In this document: positions 6,207 to 32,626 of the stretch, piece after piece
Position numbering within the stretch: position 1 is the first letter of the stretch
Layout: each line of letters opens with the position of its first letter
Source of the DNA: Pseudomonadota bacterium
GTDB lineage: Bacteria > Desulfobacterota > WTBG01 > JAPLJA01
DNA length: 33,686 nt
Direction: 5' to 3'
NCBI GenBank assembly: GCA_026388815.1
Contig: JAPLJA010000259.1
Location: 1-33,686, forward strand
Notes under the pieces: generated by a model
What the model was told of the DNA's origin: nothing
Databases searched by the model: none
What the model saw: the letters and a program-made list of their open reading frames with translations, nothing else
Program-made: the position numbers and the translations under genes

Positions 6207-6308
6207 ATTTCACTAACAAAACACTTCGCGTTTGTTATGGCGAATACCGCCAAAGCGCTGGGTGTTTCAATTGAGAATTTGATCAAATTGAATTATGCAA
6301 CAAACTAA
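6207..6308 (+). pseudogene. Remnant of an XRE-type helix-turn-helix regulator
   Basis: The frame from 6207 to the TAA at 6306-6308 encodes a stretch with NTAKALGVSIENLIK, which matches the recognition-helix and last-helix part of XRE/Cro-type repressors. The preceding part of the domain is absent: an in-frame TGA lies at 6204. It overlaps the methyltransferase start by 14 bases. The likely reading is a truncated control (C-protein-like) gene of the restriction-modification system; a short functional peptide is less likely. Confidence 0.4.
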
Positions 6309-7881
6309 ACAACTCCTAACAATTAAAGAAGCAAGCCGTTGGGCTAGCGATTTTCTCAGACGTGATATTGGCGAATCAAATATTTCATATTTGGTGCAAT
6401 ATGGGAAGGTTAAAAAACATAATGGCGACAATTCAGTTTTTGTTGATTTAAACGACTTAAAGAATTATTACGAATCGTATCGTAGAGAACGCGAGATCAA
6501 CTGGAAAAAGCGACTCGGTGATGATTTAAACTGGGCATTGTCTTTTGATCACCTTCGAGAAAAAGACACAACAAAGCACGTCCACCGCCTGCACCCTTAC
6601 AAGGGCAAGTTTATACCCCAACTTGTCCAGTATTTTATTGATGACCACACAGACGGTTTTAAAAAAGATGGTTATTTCAAAGCAGGTGATATTATTCTTG
6701 ATCCGTTTTCCGGTTCAGGAACAACGCTTGTGCAAGCACACGAGATGGGAATACACTCCATCGGCATTGATATATCCCGTTTTAACTGCATGATTACGGA
6801 AACAAAATTGCTTGACTATGATTTATCTGCACTTGAAAGCGAAGTCAAAAAAGTAAGGCAAGCAATCACAAATTATGAAGCTGATAGCAAAATCACTACT
6901 TTTGAAAATGAGCTATTAGCTCGTATGGCAGATTTTAATAGTAGGTATTTCCCGAGTCCAGAATTCAAATACAAAATTCAGAAAGGGCAAATAGATGAAG
7001 ATAAATATGTAGCTGAAAAAGAAAAGGAATTTTTGGAAATTTATAACGATCTCGTTAAAAAATACAATATTGAATTAAATCACTTTTCTGCCAAAAACTT
7101 TTTGGATAGGTGGTATATCAAGAATGTACGCAAAGAAATTGATTTTGCATTTGAACAAATTAAAAAAATAAAAGATCTAAAAAATAAAAAGATTCTGGCT
7201 GTAATTTTAAGCCGAACAATTAGATCATGTCGTGCAACAACGCACTCGGATTTAGCTACTCTCAAAGAACCACAGGTAACCACTTACTATTGCTGGAAAC
7301 ACAAAAAGATTTGCAAGCCGCTTTTCTCAATAAAAGCATGGTTTGAACGCTACGCCATTGATACAGTCAATCGTCTTAAAATTTTTGCTAAATTAAAAAC
7401 AAACTCGCATTATGCAATTATCCCAACTGACTCTAGAAATATTGATATTTTCAAGGAAGTTGAAAAGAGAAATAAAAAGTTCGGAGAGATATTGAAGAAA
7501 CAAAAAATTAAAGGGATTTTTACTTCACCGCCATATGTCGGCCAGATTGATTATCATGAGCAGCATGCCTATGCTTACGATCTTTTTGGATTTGAGCGGA
7601 AAGATGAGCTAGAAATAGGGCCACTGTATAAAGGTCAAGGCATGGAGGCACGAGCTTCTTATGTTGATGGAATTTCAAAAGTCCTGCTGAATTGTAAAAT
7701 TTTTCTAGTTGATGACTTCGATGTCTTTATTGTAGCGAACGATAAATATAACCTCTATCCCTCAATTGCAGAACGGTCCGGCATGAAAATTGTGAATCAA
7801 TTCAAGAGGCCGGTATTAAATAGAACAGAACGAGATAAGGCACCCTATTCAGAAATTATTTTCCACTTGAAAAGCTTATGA
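6295..7881 (+). CDS. Site-specific DNA methyltransferase with N-terminal HTH
   Basis: The 528-residue protein starts with a helix-turn-helix-like segment (residues 5-60, LLTIKEASRWASDFLRR), then HRLHPYKGKFIPQL, the AdoMet-binding motif DPFSGSGTT (136-144), a long middle region (about 170-405) and the catalytic motif SPPY (411-414). The acceptor is an exocyclic amino group (N6-adenine or N4-cytosine). Motif I precedes motif IV with a large insertion between them, likely the target recognition region. It is followed with a four-base overlap by the AIPR gene and then a TdeIII-like nuclease, so it is probably the protecting methylase of that system. No clear Shine-Dalgarno is seen. Base composition is AT-rich compared with the flanks, which suggests transfer. 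Confidence 0.85.
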   Translation: MQQTKQLLTIKEASRWASDFLRRDIGESNISYLVQYGKVKKHNGDNSVFVDLNDLKNYYESYRREREINWKKRLGDDLNWALSFDHLREKDTTKHVHRLHPYKGKFIPQLVQYFIDDHTDGFKKDGYFKAGDIILDPFSGSGTTLVQAHEMGIHSIGIDISRFNCMITETKLLDYDLSALESEVKKVRQAITNYEADSKITTFENELLARMADFNSRYFPSPEFKYKIQKGQIDEDKYVAEKEKEFLEIYNDLVKKYNIELNHFSAKNFLDRWYIKNVRKEIDFAFEQIKKIKDLKNKKILAVILSRTIRSCRATTHSDLATLKEPQVTTYYCWKHKKICKPLFSIKAWFERYAIDTVNRLKIFAKLKTNSHYAIIPTDSRNIDIFKEVEKRNKKFGEILKKQKIKGIFTSPPYVGQIDYHEQHAYAYDLFGFERKDELEIGPLYKGQGMEARASYVDGISKVLLNCKIFLVDDFDVFIVANDKYNLYPSIAERSGMKIVNQFKRPVLNRTERDKAPYSEIIFHLKSL

Positions 7882-9584
7882 ATACTATTATAAGAAATTT
7901 GATAAGAGATTTTTTAAAAAGTGAAGAAATAGAGTCTTCTGATGACGCTAAAAATTTTGAGAACTTCTGTAATTTTTCAATAATTTCCTCTGAGTATAAA
8001 AGTGATTTTTCTATAGAAGATATCTCAATGGGTTCCACGCAAGGAATAGATGGCATAGCAATAATTGTGAATGGAAATTTAATTACTACCACAGAGGAAA
8101 TAGATGATCTGGTTGTTCGTAATAATTTTCTTGAGGCCTCTTTTATTTTTACACAAGCAAAAACCTCAAATTCTTTTGATGGCGCCGATATTAGTAATTT
8201 CTTTGTCTCCATAAGTGATTTTCTCAGCGATGAACCGAAGTCAACCCAATCAACAGAGATTAAAAGAGCGATTACTTTAAAAGAAAAAGTTTGGGAACAT
8301 GTGTCAAAAATGACCAAAGGGAAACCCATTTGTAAGATTTATTATGTTACCACGGGAACTTGGCAAAGGGACAAAAGTTTAGAATCTAGGATTAATGGCC
8401 ACAAATCAGATTTGGAGAAATTATCTTTGTTCCAAAAAATAGAAGTCTTCCCCTGTGGAGCAGATGAAATACAGCAATATTATTTGCGGACAAAGAGGAC
8501 AACAAGATGTGAGTTTACATTTGATAAGCATATAGTTTTGCCAGTAGAAGAAAGAGTTCAAGAAGCATATTTTGGAATAGTTAATTTTGCAGAATTTAAA
8601 AAAATAATCTCCGATGATGGTGACGAGATTAAAGATGTTTTTTATGAAAATGTTCGTGCCTTTTTAGGCGAATCAAATAATGTTAACAAAGGGATAGAAG
8701 CAACTCTTGAAAATAAAGAGTTCGATATTTTTTGTCTACTTAATAACGGGGTCACCATCGTTGCTAACTCAAAAACAAATAAGGGAAATAAGTTTTTCAT
8801 CGAAAATTACCAAATCGTAAATGGGTGCCAGACTAGCCATGTATTATTTAATAATAAAGAAATTGATGGCATCAATCAGATATATATACCATTAAAGTTA
8901 ATAATTACTGATGATGAAAATATACAAAATAAAATTATCATTGCCACGAACAATCAAACCTCTATCCCCAAGGAGCAACTGGAGGCATTCTCAAAATTTC
9001 AAAAAGATTTAGAACTATATTATCAATCCGAACAAAATCAGCGAGCTAAGTTATTTTATGAGAGAAGACAAAAGCAATACCGCGATAAAGATGTAAGCCG
9101 CCCTCGTATTGTAACTATCAGGGAACAAATAAAATCTTTTGCTGCCATGTTTTTAGATCAGCCACACACAGCATCGGGGTATTTTAGTAAAGTGTACAAC
9201 AATAACAGAGAACAAATGTTTATCTCTGGCCATAAATTTTACCCTTATTACATATCTTCCCTTACAATGTATATATTAGAATCATTTTTTAAAACTGGAA
9301 AAATAGATAAGAAATATCGAATTGCTCGGTATCACATTATAATGATATTCAAGACGTTATCGCAGAAGTTAAAAACCACCCCTTCTCTGGGGTCTAAAAA
9401 AATTGAGGATTATTGTGAAGAAATCAAGAAAATATTATTAAATACCAATAAAGCTCTAAAATATTTTAAAAAATCTATAGAAATTTTAGACTCCGTGCCA
9501 TCGATAAATATTGGCGATCAAAAAACCTTATATACAGCAGAAAATACCGAGGCTTTAAAAAGTAAAATGATAAAATTGAAATAG
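7878..9584 (+). CDS. AIPR-family (abortive phage infection) protein
   Basis: The 568-residue protein carries the AIPR signature in its middle: LLNNGVTIVAN (287-297), QIVNGCQTS (312-320) and, further on, IIIATNNQTSIPKEQLEA. AIPR proteins occur in phage-defence and restriction-modification loci; the founding example causes abortive infection, but the biochemical activity is not settled. The N-terminal ~230 residues contain FIFTQAKTS and IYYVTTG, a layout seen in nuclease-like N-terminal parts of this family (weak inference). It overlaps the methyltransferase stop by ATGA, and the restriction gene follows five bases later, so the three genes form one operon. Confidence 0.8.
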   Translation: MNTIIRNLIRDFLKSEEIESSDDAKNFENFCNFSIISSEYKSDFSIEDISMGSTQGIDGIAIIVNGNLITTTEEIDDLVVRNNFLEASFIFTQAKTSNSFDGADISNFFVSISDFLSDEPKSTQSTEIKRAITLKEKVWEHVSKMTKGKPICKIYYVTTGTWQRDKSLESRINGHKSDLEKLSLFQKIEVFPCGADEIQQYYLRTKRTTRCEFTFDKHIVLPVEERVQEAYFGIVNFAEFKKIISDDGDEIKDVFYENVRAFLGESNNVNKGIEATLENKEFDIFCLLNNGVTIVANSKTNKGNKFFIENYQIVNGCQTSHVLFNNKEIDGINQIYIPLKLIITDDENIQNKIIIATNNQTSIPKEQLEAFSKFQKDLELYYQSEQNQRAKLFYERRQKQYRDKDVSRPRIVTIREQIKSFAAMFLDQPHTASGYFSKVYNNNREQMFISGHKFYPYYISSLTMYILESFFKTGKIDKKYRIARYHIIMIFKTLSQKLKTTPSLGSKKIEDYCEEIKKILLNTNKALKYFKKSIEILDSVPSINIGDQKTLYTAENTEALKSKMIKLK

Positions 9585-9589
9585 ACAAT

Positions 9590-10366
9590 ATGGCTTTATC
9601 AAATTCACAAAAAGAGAAAATCACAGCATTACTCGAAAGGAAGATTGAGGATAAATTACGTCGCTACGCCCGCGAAACTTCCTCAATGCCGTTCCTGACA
9701 CGCCTTATTCAAGATAGCGAGAAGGTGGCGGCATATTCATTCATACACTCAATTGCCACAACTTTGGGCATGTCTATTTACGAAGATGTCTCAAAAATTA
9801 TTGCAGAAGAAAGTGCGGACGAATGTTTTACAAAATATGATGTCGGCGGTGTTATTTCACGCGAGCAAAAATCGGTTATTGATGACATAGTTAGAAAACT
9901 TCGTAACGGCGAAAAAGAAGTCAATAACGCACAAGAAATAAAATTGGTGCTCGACGCTTCGGCGAAGGACGGCAAAGCCCAAAAAGAAGGAAGGATTGCG
10001 GATTTCTATATGCGGCGCGCCGGCAAAGAACATTATTTTGAAATCAAAACAGTAAAACCGAACATCGACGTTTTTACAAAATCAAAAACAAAACTTTTAG
10101 AATGGGTTGCGCGTCGGGGAAGTCCGATCAGAGTTTTTCTTGCTTTTCCCTACAATCCATATCACCCCCAACCATACGAGCGGTTTACAGAGCAAGGAGT
10201 TTTGGAAAAAGGAGAAGAGTTTTTAATAGGAAACGAATATTGGGATTTTCTCGGCGGGGAAAATACCTTTGAGCAATTGCTGGCTTTATTTGATGAAGTA
10301 GGAAAAAAGTTCAGAGAGAAAATTCGTCAAAAGATACAACAAGTTGCGAAAGAAAAAATGGGTTAA
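9590..10366 (+). CDS. TdeIII-like type II restriction endonuclease
   Basis: This is a 258-residue protein resembling the TdeIII restriction endonuclease family; the named member cuts GGNCC. A PD-(D/E)XK-type core is visible as RIADFYMRRAGKEHYFEIK, with the Asp, Glu and Lys in the expected order, followed by VFLAFPYNPYHP. The C-terminus is highly charged (KKFREKIRQKIQQVAKEK). It lies five bases after the AIPR gene in the methyltransferase operon. The recognition site of this copy is unknown, and the methyltransferase does not prove it. Confidence 0.7.
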   Translation: MALSNSQKEKITALLERKIEDKLRRYARETSSMPFLTRLIQDSEKVAAYSFIHSIATTLGMSIYEDVSKIIAEESADECFTKYDVGGVISREQKSVIDDIVRKLRNGEKEVNNAQEIKLVLDASAKDGKAQKEGRIADFYMRRAGKEHYFEIKTVKPNIDVFTKSKTKLLEWVARRGSPIRVFLAFPYNPYHPQPYERFTEQGVLEKGEEFLIGNEYWDFLGGENTFEQLLALFDEVGKKFREKIRQKIQQVAKEKMG

Positions 10367-10595: not shown

Positions 10596-10697
10596 AATCT
10601 TTCACTTCATCCCTGTTACTAAGGAATTCCAGGGACACCATACTTAATTCTTGACTCCCGCCTAAAAAACGAAGAAATTGGGGACGGGTTCATATTT
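10581..10697. repeat. Cluster of RAYT/REP-like repeat ends
   Basis: Three short sequences of one style lie close together: AGGGGACGTTGTTGAAATC (10581-10599), CCAGGGACACCATACTTAAT (10629-10648) and ATTGGGGACGGGTTCATAT (10677-10695). From general knowledge, GGGGAC-headed words of this kind occur around REP-associated tyrosine transposase genes and their mobilised ends. No transposase is present here, so this would be a scar. Confidence 0.45.
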
Positions 10698-10920
10698 CCG
10701 TATCACTGAAGTCCAGCGCCACCAGGGCGAGCTGGACGATATAGAGGTAAAATCAGCGCACGGCGGAACTCCCCAGCGACTGTTTGAGCCCCTCTCTGCA
10801 TTTGCGAACCATCCAGGCGGCGGCGTAATGCTTTTCGGGCTGGAGGAAAAGCGGAAGCGGATTGCACAGATCATGGGTGAACTGAGAATCTTGCTTCAAA
10901 ATACCAACAATGGAGGATGA
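10678..10920 (+). pseudogene. AlbA_2 (Schlafen-like) domain fragment
   Basis: The frame encodes IEVKSAHGGTPQRLFEPLSA and FANHPGGGVMLFG, the start of an AlbA_2 domain as found in Schlafen-like/RecG-like ATP-binding regulators normally 400-500 residues long. After ~55 residues it passes into an unrelated end (RIAQIMGELRILLQNTNNGG). The only start available is a TTG inside the repeat at 10676-10696, so the 5' end was probably replaced by the repeat and the middle deleted. The stop lies directly against the Fic ATG with a shared GGAGG, so both once formed an operon. Confidence 0.55.
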
Positions 10921-11970
10921 ATGCGATCATTTGAATATGGCTATTTACTTGAGCAGCCGATCTCTCAAAATCTTTTAATGACGGTACGGACCTTAGGAGA
11001 GTACCGGGGCCGACAAACCCTGTACCAAAAGCAATCCCCCGAAGCACTGGAGACTCTTAAGAAGGTAGCAATGGTTCAGAGCGTGGAATCCTCCAACCGG
11101 ATTGAAGGGGTGATTGTAGCGGCAGATCGGCTGGAAGCAATTGTGGCAAAGAAAATCAGACCGAAAGGGCATTCTGAGGAAGAGGTTGCTGGCTATCGTG
11201 ATGTGCTGTCCGACATCCATGCAAACGCCAAGCGCATGATACTCACGTCTGATCTCATTCTTCGATTTCATCGTCAGATGTATGCGCGTACACCTGAAAA
11301 AGGTGGACAGTGGAAATCCAAAGATAATGCAATCTTAGAGGTTCTTCCCGATAGGCGTCAAGTCATTCGCTTCCGTCCTGTTTCAGCCTTGGCAACCCCA
11401 GAATTCATAAAGAAACTCTGCACTTTTTACCAGCAGGCAATAGACGAGCGACAGGGAGAACCTCTCCTTTTAATCGCTTCATTTGTTTTTGACTTCGAGT
11501 GCATTCATCCTTTCTGGGATGGGAACGGCAGGATTGGCCGCCTGCTAACTCTCCTTTTACTCTACCAGGCTGGTTATGAAGCGGGCCGTTACATCAGCTT
11601 GGAACGGATCATTGAGGAGAGTAAAGAGACCTATTATGAGGTGCTCTTAAATAGTTCCCATGGCTGGCATGAGGCGAAACACGATCTGCGGCCCTGGTGG
11701 AACTATTTTTTAGGAACCCTCATTGCAGCTTACAAGGAATTTGAAGAACGAATGGGAACCATTACTACAGCCAAAGGGGCTAAGAGAGAGATGGTTCAAC
11801 AGACAATTAATCGTCTCCCAAGCCGCTTCAAATTCAGTGAACTTCAACGTGCCTGCCCCGGCGTAAGCTACCCGACTTTGAAGAGAGCTCTGATGGATCT
11901 CAAGCGGCAAAAGAAAGTTCGGTGCCTTGGTAGGGGGCGGGATGCCGAATGGGAGCGAATTGGATCATGA
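10921..11970 (+). CDS. Fic family protein (AMPylase-type)
   Basis: A 349-residue protein. The Fic active loop is complete: HPFWDGNGRIGR (196-207), with the catalytic His, the metal-binding Asp and the phosphate-binding Gly-Arg. SSNRIEG (57-63) near the N-terminus fits the (S/T)xxxE(G/N) inhibitory helix of class II Fic proteins, so the enzyme is probably auto-inhibited. A winged-helix-like tail (about 285-345, PSRFKFSELQRACPGVSY) follows. Fic enzymes transfer AMP or similar groups to Ser/Thr/Tyr of proteins; the target is unknown. GGAGG lies four bases before the ATG. A terminator follows the stop. Confidence 0.9.
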   Translation: MRSFEYGYLLEQPISQNLLMTVRTLGEYRGRQTLYQKQSPEALETLKKVAMVQSVESSNRIEGVIVAADRLEAIVAKKIRPKGHSEEEVAGYRDVLSDIHANAKRMILTSDLILRFHRQMYARTPEKGGQWKSKDNAILEVLPDRRQVIRFRPVSALATPEFIKKLCTFYQQAIDERQGEPLLLIASFVFDFECIHPFWDGNGRIGRLLTLLLLYQAGYEAGRYISLERIIEESKETYYEVLLNSSHGWHEAKHDLRPWWNYFLGTLIAAYKEFEERMGTITTAKGAKREMVQQTINRLPSRFKFSELQRACPGVSYPTLKRALMDLKRQKKVRCLGRGRDAEWERIGS

Positions 11971-12018: not shown

Positions 12019-12388
12019 TGGTGGAGAATTGTGGAGAATTGGAGATGGGTTCATATTGCTCATAAATTGTCCATTCTTGTCCATTTGTGCCCATTTATTA
12101 TCCATTAGTCTCCCATCTTCATTTGTCATTCATAGAACAGAACACTTCCCTTTCCCTCATCCCCATCTCCCCAGCCATCCAACATATCCTTTTAAGTCAG
12201 TCTTAGCCACTGCCTCAATAAGTGTGAAAGGAGTAAGGTCAAAGGGGAAAGGCACCCCTAATGCGGAGTGAAGAAGACAGGAGTAAAAAACAGAGTTCAG
12301 AAGTCAGAATTCGAGCGTAAAAGAGGGACAACCTCCCGATTAGAGAGTCGTATCCAAAACCTTCACCGTTTTCACTGAAAAATTAAAT
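12019..12388. other. Non-coding gap with repeat scars
   Basis: No convincing gene. It holds a perfect tandem ten-mer GTGGAGAATT (12021-12040) and a near copy (12037-12057) of the repeat at 10676-10696. Next is a loose TGTCCATT-type series (12067-12110), then low-complexity words (GCGGAGTGAAG, GAGTTCAGAAGTCAGAATTC) near 12260-12312. An 80-codon frame across this area looks like composition only. Confidence 0.5.
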
Positions 12389-12478
12389 TTCAACATCTGC
12401 TGAAAATATCATAAAAAATGAAATATAGCTTGACACTAAATTATTTTATTGTAATAATAATTTTCAACGAATGCTGAA
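12389..12478 (+). promoter_or_regulatory. abiE promoter flanked by two palindromic operators
   Basis: TTGACA (12430-12435) with TAATAA (12452-12457, 16-base spacing) or AATAAT (12453-12458, 17-base spacing) forms a strong promoter. It is bracketed by two related inverted repeats: TTCAACATCTGCTGAA (12389-12404) and TTCAACGAATGCTGAA (12463-12478). Their centres are 74 bases apart, close to seven DNA turns. AbiEi antitoxins are known to repress their own operon through two inverted repeats, which this layout fits. A third weaker palindrome (TTTTCACTGAAAA) lies at 12370-12382. Confidence 0.7.
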
Positions 12479-12491
12479 ATAGGTATTATTG

Positions 12492-13550
12492 ATGAAAAAT
12501 AAGCTTTGGGATATGGAGAATAAGGCAGAGAATGTTTTGAGGGCATGCCTGGAAAAGGTCCCCTTTGTCCGAATAGCGTTATTGAGCAGGGAGGTTGGTG
12601 GGGGTGGGTTGAGAGCAGATTTAGTTATTACCCTTGCCCTTCCTGATAGCAAGCAAACTTTGGTGGTGGATGTTAAGAATAACGGCCAGCCCCGTTTTAC
12701 TCGGGAGGCAGTTAATCAACTGATGAGATACCGTGAAGTTTATCCTGGCTCATACGGAGTTTTTATCGCTCCCTACATTTCTCCTCAGTCGGCTGAAATC
12801 TGCACAAAAGATGGGATTGGATATGTAGACCTTGCAGGGAATTGCCGTCTATCATTCAACCAGGTGTATATTGAACAGGAAGGGAAACCAAACCCGTTTG
12901 CAATGAAACGGGATTTGCGTTCGCTCTATTCGCCCAAGGCAGCAAGGGTTCTGTGGGTGCTTTTGAGTAACTCTATGAAAGCCTGGAAAACCCAGGAGCT
13001 CGCCAACGAAGCGAAGGTTAGCCTGGGACAGGTTGCTAACATCAAAAAACTTTTAGGGGATCGGGAATGGATATCAACTACGAGGGATGGGTTTTTGTTG
13101 AGCGAGCCGGAAAGGCTTCTTACTGAGTGGTCTGAAAATTACACCTATCGAAAGAGTAAGCTTCAGGAGTTTTACACGCTGAAAGAACTCGTGGAAATTG
13201 AAAGAGACCTGAGTGCACTCTGTAAACAGAAAGGTATTCAATACGCTTTAACTGGATTTTCGGGGGCAGCACGCCTCGCCCCTGCCGTCCGTTATCAACG
13301 GGCTATGGCCTACGTTGGTAATCAGATAGAGGAGGTAGCTTCACTCCTGAACCTCAAAGAGGTCACAAGCGGGGCTAATGTGTTGTTATTAACACCTTAC
13401 GATGAAGGTGTTTTTTATGGTATCAGGCAAATTGACAGTATCTGTATAGCATCTCCAGTACAGATCTATCTCGATCTAAAAAGCTATCGAGGTCGAGGTG
13501 AGGAAACCGCAAAGGCTCTCTTTGAGGAGGTTATAAGGCCAACATGGTAA
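12492..13550 (+). CDS. AbiEi-type antitoxin/regulator with PD-(D/E)XK-like N-terminal domain
   Basis: The 352-residue protein resembles AbiEi antitoxins of type IV toxin-antitoxin systems. Order: a restriction-nuclease-like domain (about 1-135, RADLVITLALP then TLVVDVKNNG, with the Asp...Asp-x-Lys spacing), a stretch GIGYVDLAGNCRLSF, a winged helix (about 155-215, KTQELANEAKVSLGQVANIK) and the C-terminal AbiEi part (YALTGFSGAARLAPAVRY). It would bind DNA and repress its own promoter, and normally counters an AbiEii nucleotidyltransferase toxin. I chose the ATG at 12492, eight bases after AGG; a TTG lies directly before it. Its end overlaps a truncated partner gene at 13544, so it appears to be an orphan. 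Confidence 0.75.
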   Translation: MKNKLWDMENKAENVLRACLEKVPFVRIALLSREVGGGGLRADLVITLALPDSKQTLVVDVKNNGQPRFTREAVNQLMRYREVYPGSYGVFIAPYISPQSAEICTKDGIGYVDLAGNCRLSFNQVYIEQEGKPNPFAMKRDLRSLYSPKAARVLWVLLSNSMKAWKTQELANEAKVSLGQVANIKKLLGDREWISTTRDGFLLSEPERLLTEWSENYTYRKSKLQEFYTLKELVEIERDLSALCKQKGIQYALTGFSGAARLAPAVRYQRAMAYVGNQIEEVASLLNLKEVTSGANVLLLTPYDEGVFYGIRQIDSICIASPVQIYLDLKSYRGRGEETAKALFEEVIRPTW

Positions 13551-13651
13551 CACGACGGGATTATACAGCCGAGAAGGTTAAGATATCTCGTTCCGTCCTG
13601 ATTGAACTCATCCATCTTTTGGGTGAATACCGGGACGATATCGTGATTTGA
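13544..13651 (+). pseudogene. Truncated AbiEii-type toxin (first 35 codons)
   Basis: The ATG overlaps the AbiEi stop by seven bases, the usual antitoxin-toxin coupling. The peptide MVTRRDYTAEKVKISRSVLI, then ELIHLLGEYRDDIVI, matches the N-terminus of nucleotidyltransferase toxins paired with this AbiEi type, where the next residues would be a VGGW-type strand. A TGA follows instead, and only 33 bases remain before the convergent MoaD-like gene, so the catalytic part is missing. This marks the right edge of the accessory island. Confidence 0.6.
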
Positions 13652-13684
13652 TTTACTATCGGGGAGGAAGTGTTTCTACGTTTC

Positions 13685-13984
13685 CTATTGCAGGGATGAT
13701 CCCCCATCAAAGGGGATAAGGATGGTGACGGTGTCACCGTCTATGACCTTTTCTCCCAGGTCGACGATGGAGCGGTAGACCCGGTCGTTCACCATGATGA
13801 GGACGGGGATCATGTCGCCGGTCACAGGGTCCTTGATCTGCTCCTCCAGGGCCTTGCCGTAGGTCTTGACCAGCTTTTCAATGAGGCTCCCGATGGTCTC
13901 ATCAGAGCCAATCTGAAAATCAATCTCCTTCCCCCCCAGGATTTCTCTCATCCCGGCAAAGGTTCTGACTTTTGCCTGAGCCAT
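13685..13984 (-). CDS. MoaD/ThiS-like ubiquitin-fold protein
   Basis: A 99-residue beta-grasp protein of the MoaD/ThiS type (KVRTFAGMREILGGKEIDF, then VIDGDTVTILIPFDGG). Such proteins carry sulfur as a C-terminal thiocarboxylate for molybdopterin or similar cofactors, and MoaD-like genes often accompany tungsten AOR genes. Oddly, the Gly-Gly is not terminal: four more residues (SSLQ) follow, so sulfur activation would need trimming, or the protein acts another way. It is the last gene of the leftward run, seven bases after the ferredoxin at 13991. A role in W/Mo cofactor supply for AOR and FdhA is inferred. Confidence 0.8.
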   Translation of the reverse strand: MAQAKVRTFAGMREILGGKEIDFQIGSDETIGSLIEKLVKTYGKALEEQIKDPVTGDMIPVLIMVNDRVYRSIVDLGEKVIDGDTVTILIPFDGGSSLQ

Positions 13985-30952: not shown

Positions 30953-32626
30953 TTACTGTATCGCCCAGAGCTGACAGGTTCCGTCGTCTGAACCGGAGAT
31001 GAGGTATTTCCCTTTCGGGTCAAAGGCAACTGATTCCACTTGGTTGGTATGGCCGGAAAAAGTATTCACCAGGGCACGTTTCCTGAGATCCCAGAGGTCG
31101 ACCATAGTTCCACCCCGCGCAGCAGCAAGATACTTCCCGTCGTTACTTATTGCTATAGACCAGATACGGTCTGTTTTCTCACCAAGGGTTCCTACTGACT
31201 TGCCGACCGCTAAATCCCAGAGGGCCATACCGCCCTTTTCAGAGGCGGTAATCAGGTATCTCCCTTCCGGCAGGAAAGAGAGCGACCAGACCTCTCCCCC
31301 ATCACTCTTGAGAATACGTACCGCTTTTCCCATCGCCACATCCCAGACCCGTACGGTTCCATCCTGTGAACCGGATGTGATATATTTTCCATCAGGGCTG
31401 AAACTGGCTGTCCACACCGGCTTTCTGTGGCCGGTGAGTGCCTTGACCTCGATCCCCTCAAGCACATCCCAGATCCTGATTGTCCTGTCGTCAGAACCGG
31501 ATGCGAGATAATCGCCGTCAGGGCTGAAGCAGAGTGAAGTGACATAATCGGTATGTCCCTTCAGGGTCTTCAGTTCAATCCCTTTTTCATAATCCCAGAG
31601 TTTTATGGTGTCATCATCCGATGATGAAGCTAAGAGCTTTCCATCCGGGCTGAACCTCACGGAATTTACATCGTCGGTATGGCCCTTCAACGTGGTTACA
31701 AGGACATTCGTCTCATAATTCCAGATGCGGAGGCAGTTGTCCTTGGAGCCTGAAGCGAAGAGGGGTTGTGAAGGATGAAAGGCGACTGACCATACATGGC
31801 CGGTGTACCCTTCAATGGTCTTCAGGAGTTTACCGCTCTTTGCTTCCCAGAACCGGATCGTGTTGTCTCTCGAACCTGAGACGATGTGTTTTCCATCCGG
31901 ACTGAAGTTCAGTGACCAGACAAAACTTGTATGACCGATAAGGGTCTTGATCTCTTTGCCGGTTGCAACGTTCCAGAGCTTGATGGTCCCGTCGTCTGAG
32001 GCAGAGGCCAGGTATTTTCCCTCAGGATCGAAACAGACTGCGATTACATAATCTCCGTGTCCTTCGAGGGTTTTAATATTCTTCCCTTCACGGTCCCAGA
32101 TCTTTATCGTCTTATCATCCGAGCCGGAGACGATATATTTCATGTTCGGGGAGAAGTCGATGGATTCGATGATGTTGGCATGGCCTTCGAGCACCTTCAC
32201 CTCTTCCCCGGTCTTCACGTCCCAGAGCCTGATGGTGTCGTCGTTGGAGCCGGATGCCAGGAGCTTCCCGTCAGGGCTGAAGCGGACAGAGGTTACGTCG
32301 TCCTTGTGCCCTTTAAGTGTCCTGATGGCCTTTCCGGTCTTCACGTCCCAGAGCCTGATGGTGTCGTCGTTGGAGCCGGATGCCAGGAGCTTCCCGTCAG
32401 GGCTATAGTTTACGGTGACCACATAGTCTTTATGCTGGGTCAGTGACTTTATTAGCTGTAAATCCTTTACCCGGTAGATTTCGATTCCCCGGGTGGTGGC
32501 GACGGCAATTGATTCACCATCCGGTGAATATTTACAGTCAAAGAGCCACCCCTTGCCGAAGTGCCTGACAGGTTTTACCACAGGCTTCACAGCTTTCATC
32601 TTTTCTGTCACACGTAAGGACTTCAC
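30953..32626 (-). CDS. WD40-repeat beta-propeller protein
   Basis: A 557-residue protein made almost wholly of 13 WD40 units of about 42 residues (typical unit SVRFSPDGKLLASGSNDDTI, then RLWD). No signal peptide, membrane segment or catalytic domain is seen, so a cytosolic binding scaffold is likely. Two neighbouring units share a 71-base identical stretch (32208-32278 and 32334-32404), evidence of recent internal duplication. The start is GTG 32626, or ATG 32599 (MKAVKPVVKPVRHFGKG); neither has a strong ribosome site. It lies between the CoA-transferase and the AOR ferredoxin with gaps of only 3 to 60 bases, so it is part of that operon. Confidence 0.9.
   Translation of the reverse strand: MKSLRVTEKMKAVKPVVKPVRHFGKGWLFDCKYSPDGESIAVATTRGIEIYRVKDLQLIKSLTQHKDYVVTVNYSPDGKLLASGSNDDTIRLWDVKTGKAIRTLKGHKDDVTSVRFSPDGKLLASGSNDDTIRLWDVKTGEEVKVLEGHANIIESIDFSPNMKYIVSGSDDKTIKIWDREGKNIKTLEGHGDYVIAVCFDPEGKYLASASDDGTIKLWNVATGKEIKTLIGHTSFVWSLNFSPDGKHIVSGSRDNTIRFWEAKSGKLLKTIEGYTGHVWSVAFHPSQPLFASGSKDNCLRIWNYETNVLVTTLKGHTDDVNSVRFSPDGKLLASSSDDDTIKLWDYEKGIELKTLKGHTDYVTSLCFSPDGDYLASGSDDRTIRIWDVLEGIEVKALTGHRKPVWTASFSPDGKYITSGSQDGTVRVWDVAMGKAVRILKSDGGEVWSLSFLPEGRYLITASEKGGMALWDLAVGKSVGTLGEKTDRIWSIAISNDGKYLAAARGGTMVDLWDLRKRALVNTFSGHTNQVESVAFDPKGKYLISGSDDGTCQLWAIQ
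32208..32404. repeat. Exact 71-base duplication inside the WD40 gene
   Basis: Bases 32208-32278 and 32334-32404 are identical. They are offset by 126 bases, one WD40 unit of 42 codons. Other units are clearly diverged, so this copy is young or kept alike by recombination. Confidence 0.85.

Follow-up and report, generated by a model that had tools for sequence, protein, structure and literature searches.

What keeps an antitoxin gene in a genome after its toxin has been lost? The question is raised by a gene in the window (the whole stretch of 33,686 nucleotides analysed here) that encodes an AbiEi-type antitoxin, and for which a sequence-only reading had proposed an answer: the N-terminal part of the protein would contain a PD-(D/E)XK nuclease core, and the antitoxin, as a nuclease or DNA-bound effector by itself, might survive without a toxin. 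Because the N-terminal domain is cutter-like with the likely residues kept, and because the gene has outlived its toxin, the antitoxin itself may be an enzyme. The features of the locus are listed in Table 1.

Table 1. Features of the antitoxin locus, in window coordinates; residue numbers refer to the antitoxin.
Feature	Position	Strand	Remarks
Operator-like palindrome 1	12388..12405	+	TTTCAACATCTGCTGAAA; 18 bp
Sigma-70-like promoter (candidate)	12430..12458	+	TTGACA-17-AATAAT, TG before second hexamer; between palindromes; 11/12 consensus matches
Operator-like palindrome 2	12462..12479	+	TTTCAACGAATGCTGAAA; 18 bp; at expected (inferred) transcription start
AbiEi_2/COG4861 antitoxin orf	12489..13550	+	Including stop (coding 12489-13547); 353 aa; start TTG 12489 or, likelier, ATG 12492
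N-terminal PD-(D/E)XK nuclease-fold domain, NucS C-domain-like	12492..12896	+	Residues about 1-130; predicted fold and profiles
D44, predicted metal-binding Asp, strand 2	12618..12620	+	Alignment, model, rates
D61-V-K63, (D/E)xK motif, end of strand 3	12669..12677	+	Glu at 61 in most relatives
Q77-x-x-x-Y81, QxxxY-like motif	12717..12731	+	Aligned with NucS
G111-x-x-D114-x-x-G117-N118 (VDLAGN)	12819..12842	+	Invariant; not catalytic core
Winged helix domain	12918..13136	+	Residues 144-216; model; carries W156
AbiEi_2 domain PF09952, nucleotidyltransferase-like fold without DxD	13101..13535	+	Model residues 232-353
Relic of partner nucleotidyltransferase toxin gene	13544..13651	+	35 codons then stop, just before GGW motif

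Domain order and predicted fold of the antitoxin

The segment that had been singled out (12492-12900) spans residues 2-137 of the orf and is almost exactly its N-terminal domain; the motifs cited for a nuclease are in place (RADLVI at residues 42-47, LVVDVKNNG at 58-66, VDLAGNCRL at 113-121). The assignment to the AbiEi type also stands: PF09952 (AbiEi_2) matches residues 205-349 with an E value of 1.7e-18 and 67.8 bits against a gathering score of 21, which places the protein in that family. PF09952 is equated with COG4861, and PF08843 with COG2253/COG4849 (PMC7251935). PADLOC assigned the window antitoxin to no family. On the predicted structure it is a three-domain antitoxin, PD-(D/E)XK followed by a winged helix and then AbiEi_2.

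The structure was modelled with AF2 from alignment A1, which holds 73 proteins (that of the window and those of 72 of 81 loci, without L040, L044, L045, L052, L055, L059, L061, L069 and L078), and the model has a mean pLDDT of 92.3 and a pTM of 0.67. Residues 2-130 follow, according to DSSP, the order H-E-E-E-H-E-H-E-E-E, which is the PD-(D/E)XK topology, with D44 within the second strand (41-50) and D61-x-K63 closing the third (55-62); the register of this hairpin, in which residue 50 pairs with 55, would set D44 opposite D61. The outcome named beforehand as speaking against the proposal, a predicted fold lacking the catalytic residues in one site, was not obtained. By VIA-align, on whose own scale the values obtained are middling to good and a Z below 8 possibly reflects a mere common arrangement, the N-terminal domain matched PaqCI (8epx_D; Z 11.0, rmsd 2.7, 120 aligned), EndoMS (5gke_A; Z 10.0, rmsd 3.2, 108 aligned) and NucS (2vld_B; Z 9.8, rmsd 3.0, 102 aligned). 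The CRISPR ancillary nucleases Can2, Card1 and Cdn1 (Z 8.0-9.7) are likewise multi-domain defence proteins with a PD-(D/E)XK domain; their other domains include CARF sensors, whereas the nuclease fold of the window protein is joined to a winged helix and a nucleotidyltransferase-like fold. A Foldseek comparison of the model with the PDB had NucS, an XisH-like protein, EndoMS, PaqCI and MspJI in its top rows, the best at E 1.1e-3 and none at E <= 0.001, and a viral structure library yielded two matches at E <= 0.001 (4.6e-5 and 4.6e-4, each to some 118-119 columns of the model), both to unnamed or uncharacterised proteins.

Profile comparisons also point to NucS. The window protein has a sub-threshold Pfam match to NucS_C (residues 70-115, E 0.076) and an NCBIfam match to NucS (residues 54-116, profile positions 170-235 of 250) that, at 16.9 bits, falls far short of the equivalog cut-off of 216 bits; the likeness to NucS/EndoMS consists in the C-domain fold and the order of the (D/E)xK...QxxxY motifs, whereas the match is confined to the C-domain region of NucS. 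When the 73 members were scanned singly with E values up to 1, NucS_C was matched by 19 (best 0.0025), HSDR_N by five, Mrr_cat by three (best 5.5e-5), SfsA by two and NCBIfam NucS by 27 (best 8.3e-5), the position of the match within the protein being known for the window alone. An N-domain profile of 44 hand-chosen sequences (A2) aligned by hhalign with two NucS proteins from archaeal genomes at E 1.1e-4, with a probability of only 56% and a two-sequence template, and the alignment pairs D61-x-K63 with the ExK and Q77-x-x-x-Y81 with the QxxxY of NucS. As A2 lacks 12 of the 17 rows that have lost a triad residue (see below), its conservation was not used as evidence.

That the PD-(D/E)XK likeness is a coincidence of motifs in a protein of unrelated fold would agree with the absence of significant matches in the PDB when it was searched with the single sequence, with a whole-protein profile or with A2 (NucS 2vld at E 0.24, below designed proteins at the top). 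Such a coincidence is very improbable, however, given the fold, the profiles and the conservation described in the next section. Structure prediction and comparison with restriction-fold proteins have thus upheld the proposed PD-(D/E)XK fold: the confidently predicted topology has PaqCI, EndoMS and NucS as its structural matches, and profiles and conservation agree.

Residues 144-216 of the model matched winged-helix proteins with Z 8.0-9.1 (4ev0_D, Z 9.1, rmsd 2.2, 71 aligned); residue 156 is Trp in the window and Arg in the other 72 of the 73 A1 members. The C-terminal domain (232-353) matched MenT1 (8rr5; Z 11.2, rmsd 2.9, 117 aligned), TM1012 (Z 10.6) and ANT(2'')-Ia (Z 10.3). At the strand where the partner toxin of relatives has an invariant D57-x-D59, no acids were found in the window protein, which has R268...Y275 instead, and on the model the AbiEi_2 domain is probably a pseudo-nucleotidyltransferase. 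An antitoxin domain is here predicted to share the fold of the toxins it controls, minus the DxD.

Relatives and conservation of the putative catalytic site

COG4861-type antitoxins are widespread. A scan of genome contigs found 84 relatives in many bacterial phyla and some archaea, the best 80 of the 84 being designated L001-L080. Nine of the 58 genomes searched have a match, among them the genome of the window, which is the only one of its genus or family in this set and which also contains one distant paralogue (L082, 24% identity) with a downstream orf of 297 residues that aligns with the partner profile along 0.81 of its length and has no match to a Pfam family. Plasmids yielded 85 records, all below 60% identity, 72 of which cover at least 80% of the query; among the best 25 of the 85, the name is AbiEi family antitoxin in 20 cases and hypothetical protein in four, and one has no feature. 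The window antitoxin had no match in phage records and four in viral contigs, where the L082 protein had none. One 58-kb viral contig (L095) has the same toxin-antitoxin pair downstream of orfs that by eye resemble a DNA methylase and a large terminase, and one plasmid copy (L104, 5137-7065) lies beside genes annotated as a DUF4297 family anti-phage-associated protein and an anti-phage-associated helicase HerA.

In the window itself, a three-gene restriction-modification-like island (6295-10366) encodes a type II methyltransferase, an AbiU/AIPR-like protein and a TdeIII-type restriction endonuclease; at 10678-11970, an apparent N-terminal Schlafen/AlbA_2 fragment (E 7.5e-5, under the cut-off) is directly followed by a SoFic-like Fic gene; and 30953-32626 encodes a bacterial protein in which 11 WD40 stretches are spread over 557 residues. 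At L038, a 347-residue orf from about 2999 that by eye resembles the Fic protein of the window follows a toxin-less antitoxin; the Fic gene of the window is upstream.

Conservation was counted in an alignment of the window protein with 81 relatives, in which 80 rows were counted and 69 relatives have a letter at the triad. D44 is present in 64 of the 69, Glu61 in 61, Asp61 in one and K63 in 58; the window has Asp at position 61, as does L013, where Glu is usual and Asp is still a PD-(D/E)XK residue. In a count by rows, from which twelve rows with a missing or partial N-domain and L082 had been dropped, the D,(D/E),K triad is kept in 52 of 69 rows, the window included, and in this respect the proposed Asp...Asp-x-Lys set, which the model places on strands 2 and 3, is borne out. 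When rates were computed (LG+G4; 67 sequences including the window, without L052, L055 and L059, three of the 17 triad-losing rows), D44, K63 and D61 were the 6th, 13th and 17th slowest among the 135 positions of the N-domain, with a chance of about 0.0017 that three named positions all fall within the slowest 17; the QxxxY motif ranked lower (Q77 29th, Y81 87th). Fifteen further rows, from relatives and viral contigs, have D,E,K in 13 cases (one has lost the acid and one is without the first position), or in 12 of 14 if L090 and L113, which are one orf, are counted once; the rows are not independent in other places also, as L085/L086 read like L006/L007 and L095-L097 are alike in the stretch compared. 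Several of these rows are only 24-28% identical to the window protein, and three plasmid copies keep D, ExK and Q.

The sequence-only reading had also placed VDLAGNCRL in the Asp...Asp-x-Lys core. G111 is invariant in 72 of 72 sequences and D114, G117 and N118 in 71 of 71 each; N118 and D114 are the slowest and second slowest of the 135 positions, and these residues persist in L028, L055 and L059, which have lost the triad. Since it is invariant even where the triad is gone, VDLAGN was rejected as catalytic core, conserved as it is. L055 and L059 are antitoxins of 523 residues, longer than the others, with D,G,S in place of the triad and an intact toxin orf.

The same observations favour a reading in which the PD-(D/E)XK domain is catalytically idle, aiding only the grip of the winged helix on DNA or holding a dimer, and in which the VDLAGN surface outweighs the active site: conservation is higher at G111, D114, G117 and N118 than at the triad, and seven archaeal members (L073-L076, L078, L079 and L080) lack the N-domain altogether. 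At least one triad residue has been lost in 17 of the 69 rows, 11 of which sit beside an intact toxin, which argues that catalysis is dispensable for the pair. An idle scaffold, on the other hand, should not retain three catalytic residues among its slowest 17 positions and so far into the family, in three-quarters of the rows and nearly all of the further ones, and an idle domain is therefore considered rather unlikely. The triad site looks selected across most of the family, yet it is not indispensable.

Operator palindromes, toxin relic and persistence of the orphan

Two copies of TTTCAAC-N4-GCTGAAA, starting at 12388 and 12462, flank a promoter-like site that was called by consensus scan only, the scan giving five such sites in 12250-13750 against 2.0 expected. 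The pattern TTTCARCRNNTGCTGAAA occurs without mismatch twice in the 3.49-Mb genome, both times here, with one-change matches at two further places. Operators were counted upstream of relatives at 73 of 81 loci (80 relatives and L082; the window is not counted, and eight loci were left out because the upstream DNA was too short or the start was truncated or doubtful). At 45 of the 73, in relatives from several phyla, the interval from -150 to +15 contains a site that departs from the 12 fixed letters by at most one mismatch; in single-base shuffles the count was 3 of 1460, and at other positions 5 of 507,324; palindrome 2 is the counterpart of the commonest site, about -27 from the start codon. 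At least two sites (within two mismatches) are present at 19 of the 73 loci, and the 28 loci where no operator was found within one mismatch belong mostly to distant members, among them those from archaea. Inspection by eye shows the palindrome ahead of two of the three plasmid copies as well (L104, L105). Because the palindromes flank the promoter and recur upstream of relatives, the window protein is most likely an autorepressor, and the DNA-binding nature once suggested for it is supported by its winged helix together with the two predicted operators. The palindrome arm is GGTGAAA at L018, L022, L034, L035, L038, L039, L041 and L047, and GCTGAAA or GTTGAAA at L001-L004 and L019-L021; a specificity switch in the winged helix could possibly underlie the difference between these groups.

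The toxin is indeed missing, as had been noticed from the letters alone. Directly downstream of the antitoxin, no intact nucleotidyltransferase gene was found, only the 35-codon relic, which has none of the catalytic motifs; it overlaps the antitoxin gene by seven bases (ATGGTAA), an offset of -7 that is found in many relatives, is 75% identical to residues 1-36 of the L003 partner, and is the sole match to that partner in its genome. The downstream orfs of relatives have about 275 residues and are AbiEii-like, with a PF08843 match in 29 of 54 at E values up to 0.01, and their alignment has an invariant GG, the DxD and two Lys. A model of the partner (pLDDT 91.9) matched by VIA-align MenT1 (8an4_A; Z 13.9, rmsd 3.5, 180 aligned), MenT3 (6y5u; Z 12.3, rmsd 4.0, 221 aligned), MenT4 (Z 11.8) and also AbiEi (6y8q_A; Z 8.6, rmsd 3.4, 139 aligned); by its predicted fold, the partner is a MenT/AbiEii-like nucleotidyltransferase.

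The partner is intact in 55 of the 80 relatives, broken, truncated or absent in 20 and undecided in five (L005, L029, L042, L052, L068), counts from which L082 was left out and in which sequencing errors in metagenome-assembled genomes could mimic some of the breaks. Status was assigned by a script, which called 15 of 82 'full-length but broken', and then corrected by hand with orf lengths. For ten partners (L030, L035, L043, L047, L053, L066, L073-L076) the verdict was changed to intact, as the single stop is most likely the terminal stop of the gene itself; their orf segments of 268-361 codons were judged by length and not stop by stop. L009, at a contig end, was changed to broken, and L042, which is open at a contig end, from intact to undecided.

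On the earlier proposal, the orphan is kept for a nuclease effector activity of its own. The triad is present in the window and in 12 of the 17 toxin-less rows (window included), which does not exceed the share among rows with an intact toxin (36 of 47; Fisher p = 0.75), and an association of triad with toxin status was rejected. With retention about the same on both sides, the idea that nuclease activity explains the survival of the gene without a toxin is not supported; the 58 genomes, moreover, include no other of the same genus or family by which maintenance could be judged, and this explanation is held to be improbable.

A stronger competitor, though somewhat short of an even chance, is that the gene is what remains of a broken toxin-antitoxin operon, in decay and without present function. 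The toxin is down to 35 codons here and is absent or broken in 20 of the 75 relatives that could be judged, and the window protein departs from conserved residues by R156W and E61D. Against this, the orf, the promoter-like site and both palindromes are intact, and two departures at 42 conserved columns are exactly the median of 65 full-length rows, so that an argument for decay from an excess of unusual residues was rejected as unproven. The ten nearest relatives (L001-L010) show 0-2 departures, and a recent deletion would look alike. W156 and D61 may reflect relaxed selection, early decay or adaptation after the loss of the toxin.

Proposed role and relation to known systems

The reading preferred here, with a probability of roughly two in three (0.68), is that the gene encodes the antitoxin half of a COG4861-COG4849 (AbiEi_2-AbiEii/MenT-like) operon, an autorepressor and neutraliser with the NucS-like domain as its probable second function, left as a toxin-less orphan in the window. 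The winged helix would repress the promoter of its own gene by binding the two TTTCARC-N4-GYTGAAA operators on either side, and the degenerate nucleotidyltransferase-fold domain would most likely neutralise the true nucleotidyltransferase toxin encoded downstream. The nuclease-fold domain, judged from its conservation and model, is in most members probably a working metal-dependent domain that cleaves nucleic acids or binds their ends or damage, and it may give the repressor a second function such as attacking or sensing invading DNA. In the window, deletion of the toxin gene to 35 codons would have left a self-regulated and probably still foldable orphan. A bolder version, offered as speculation that is doubtful at present, would make COG4861 antitoxins operator-bound nucleases that cut or sense foreign or damaged DNA, leave the operator and free a MenT-like toxin; one protein would be sensor, repressor, neutraliser and effector, and the orphans would be self-regulated nucleases.

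The pair itself is known. COG4861-COG4849 (AbiEi_2/PF09952 with DUF1814/AbiEii) had been reported by 2014 as a candidate type IV toxin-antitoxin pair (PMC3985639), and Rv0837c-Rv0836c (MenA2-MenT2) is its example in Mycobacterium tuberculosis (PMC7319586, PMC3968373); a later study omitted MenT2 for having no detectable activity (PMC11375011). The window locus resembles this pair in antitoxin family, partner type, antitoxin-toxin order and the common 7-base overlap, and differs in that its toxin is deleted. In AbiE of Streptococcus agalactiae, AbiEi is an autorepressor whose promoter carries the pair of inverted repeats (23-3-23) on which it acts (PMC3985639). The AbiE system (AbiEi COG5340 with AbiEii) is like the window locus in having inverted repeats at its own promoter, here predicted operators, and a nucleotidyltransferase partner, whereas AbiEi of COG5340 has two domains with the winged helix first, and the winged helix of the window protein is central and preceded by the nuclease fold; COG4861 and COG5340 are reported to share no sequence identity (PMC3985639).

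In the portions of three papers that were available (PMC3985639, PMC7319586, PMC3968373), COG4861 is described as a putative transcriptional regulator and the nuclease-fold domain is unmentioned. A literature search that took in few subscription papers, and that included the 2007 survey of PD-(D/E)XK proteins (PMC1913061), brought up in the text accessible no recognised description of the nuclease-fold domain of COG4861/AbiEi_2 or of its operator.

Should a conserved nuclease site be present in most members of the family, the customary view of antitoxins as inert would not fully describe the COG4861 branch, and nucleic acid could be what triggers the toxin. The palindrome common to several phyla lends itself directly to a binding assay, for which relatives that have lost the triad would be at hand; these would also serve as natural controls.
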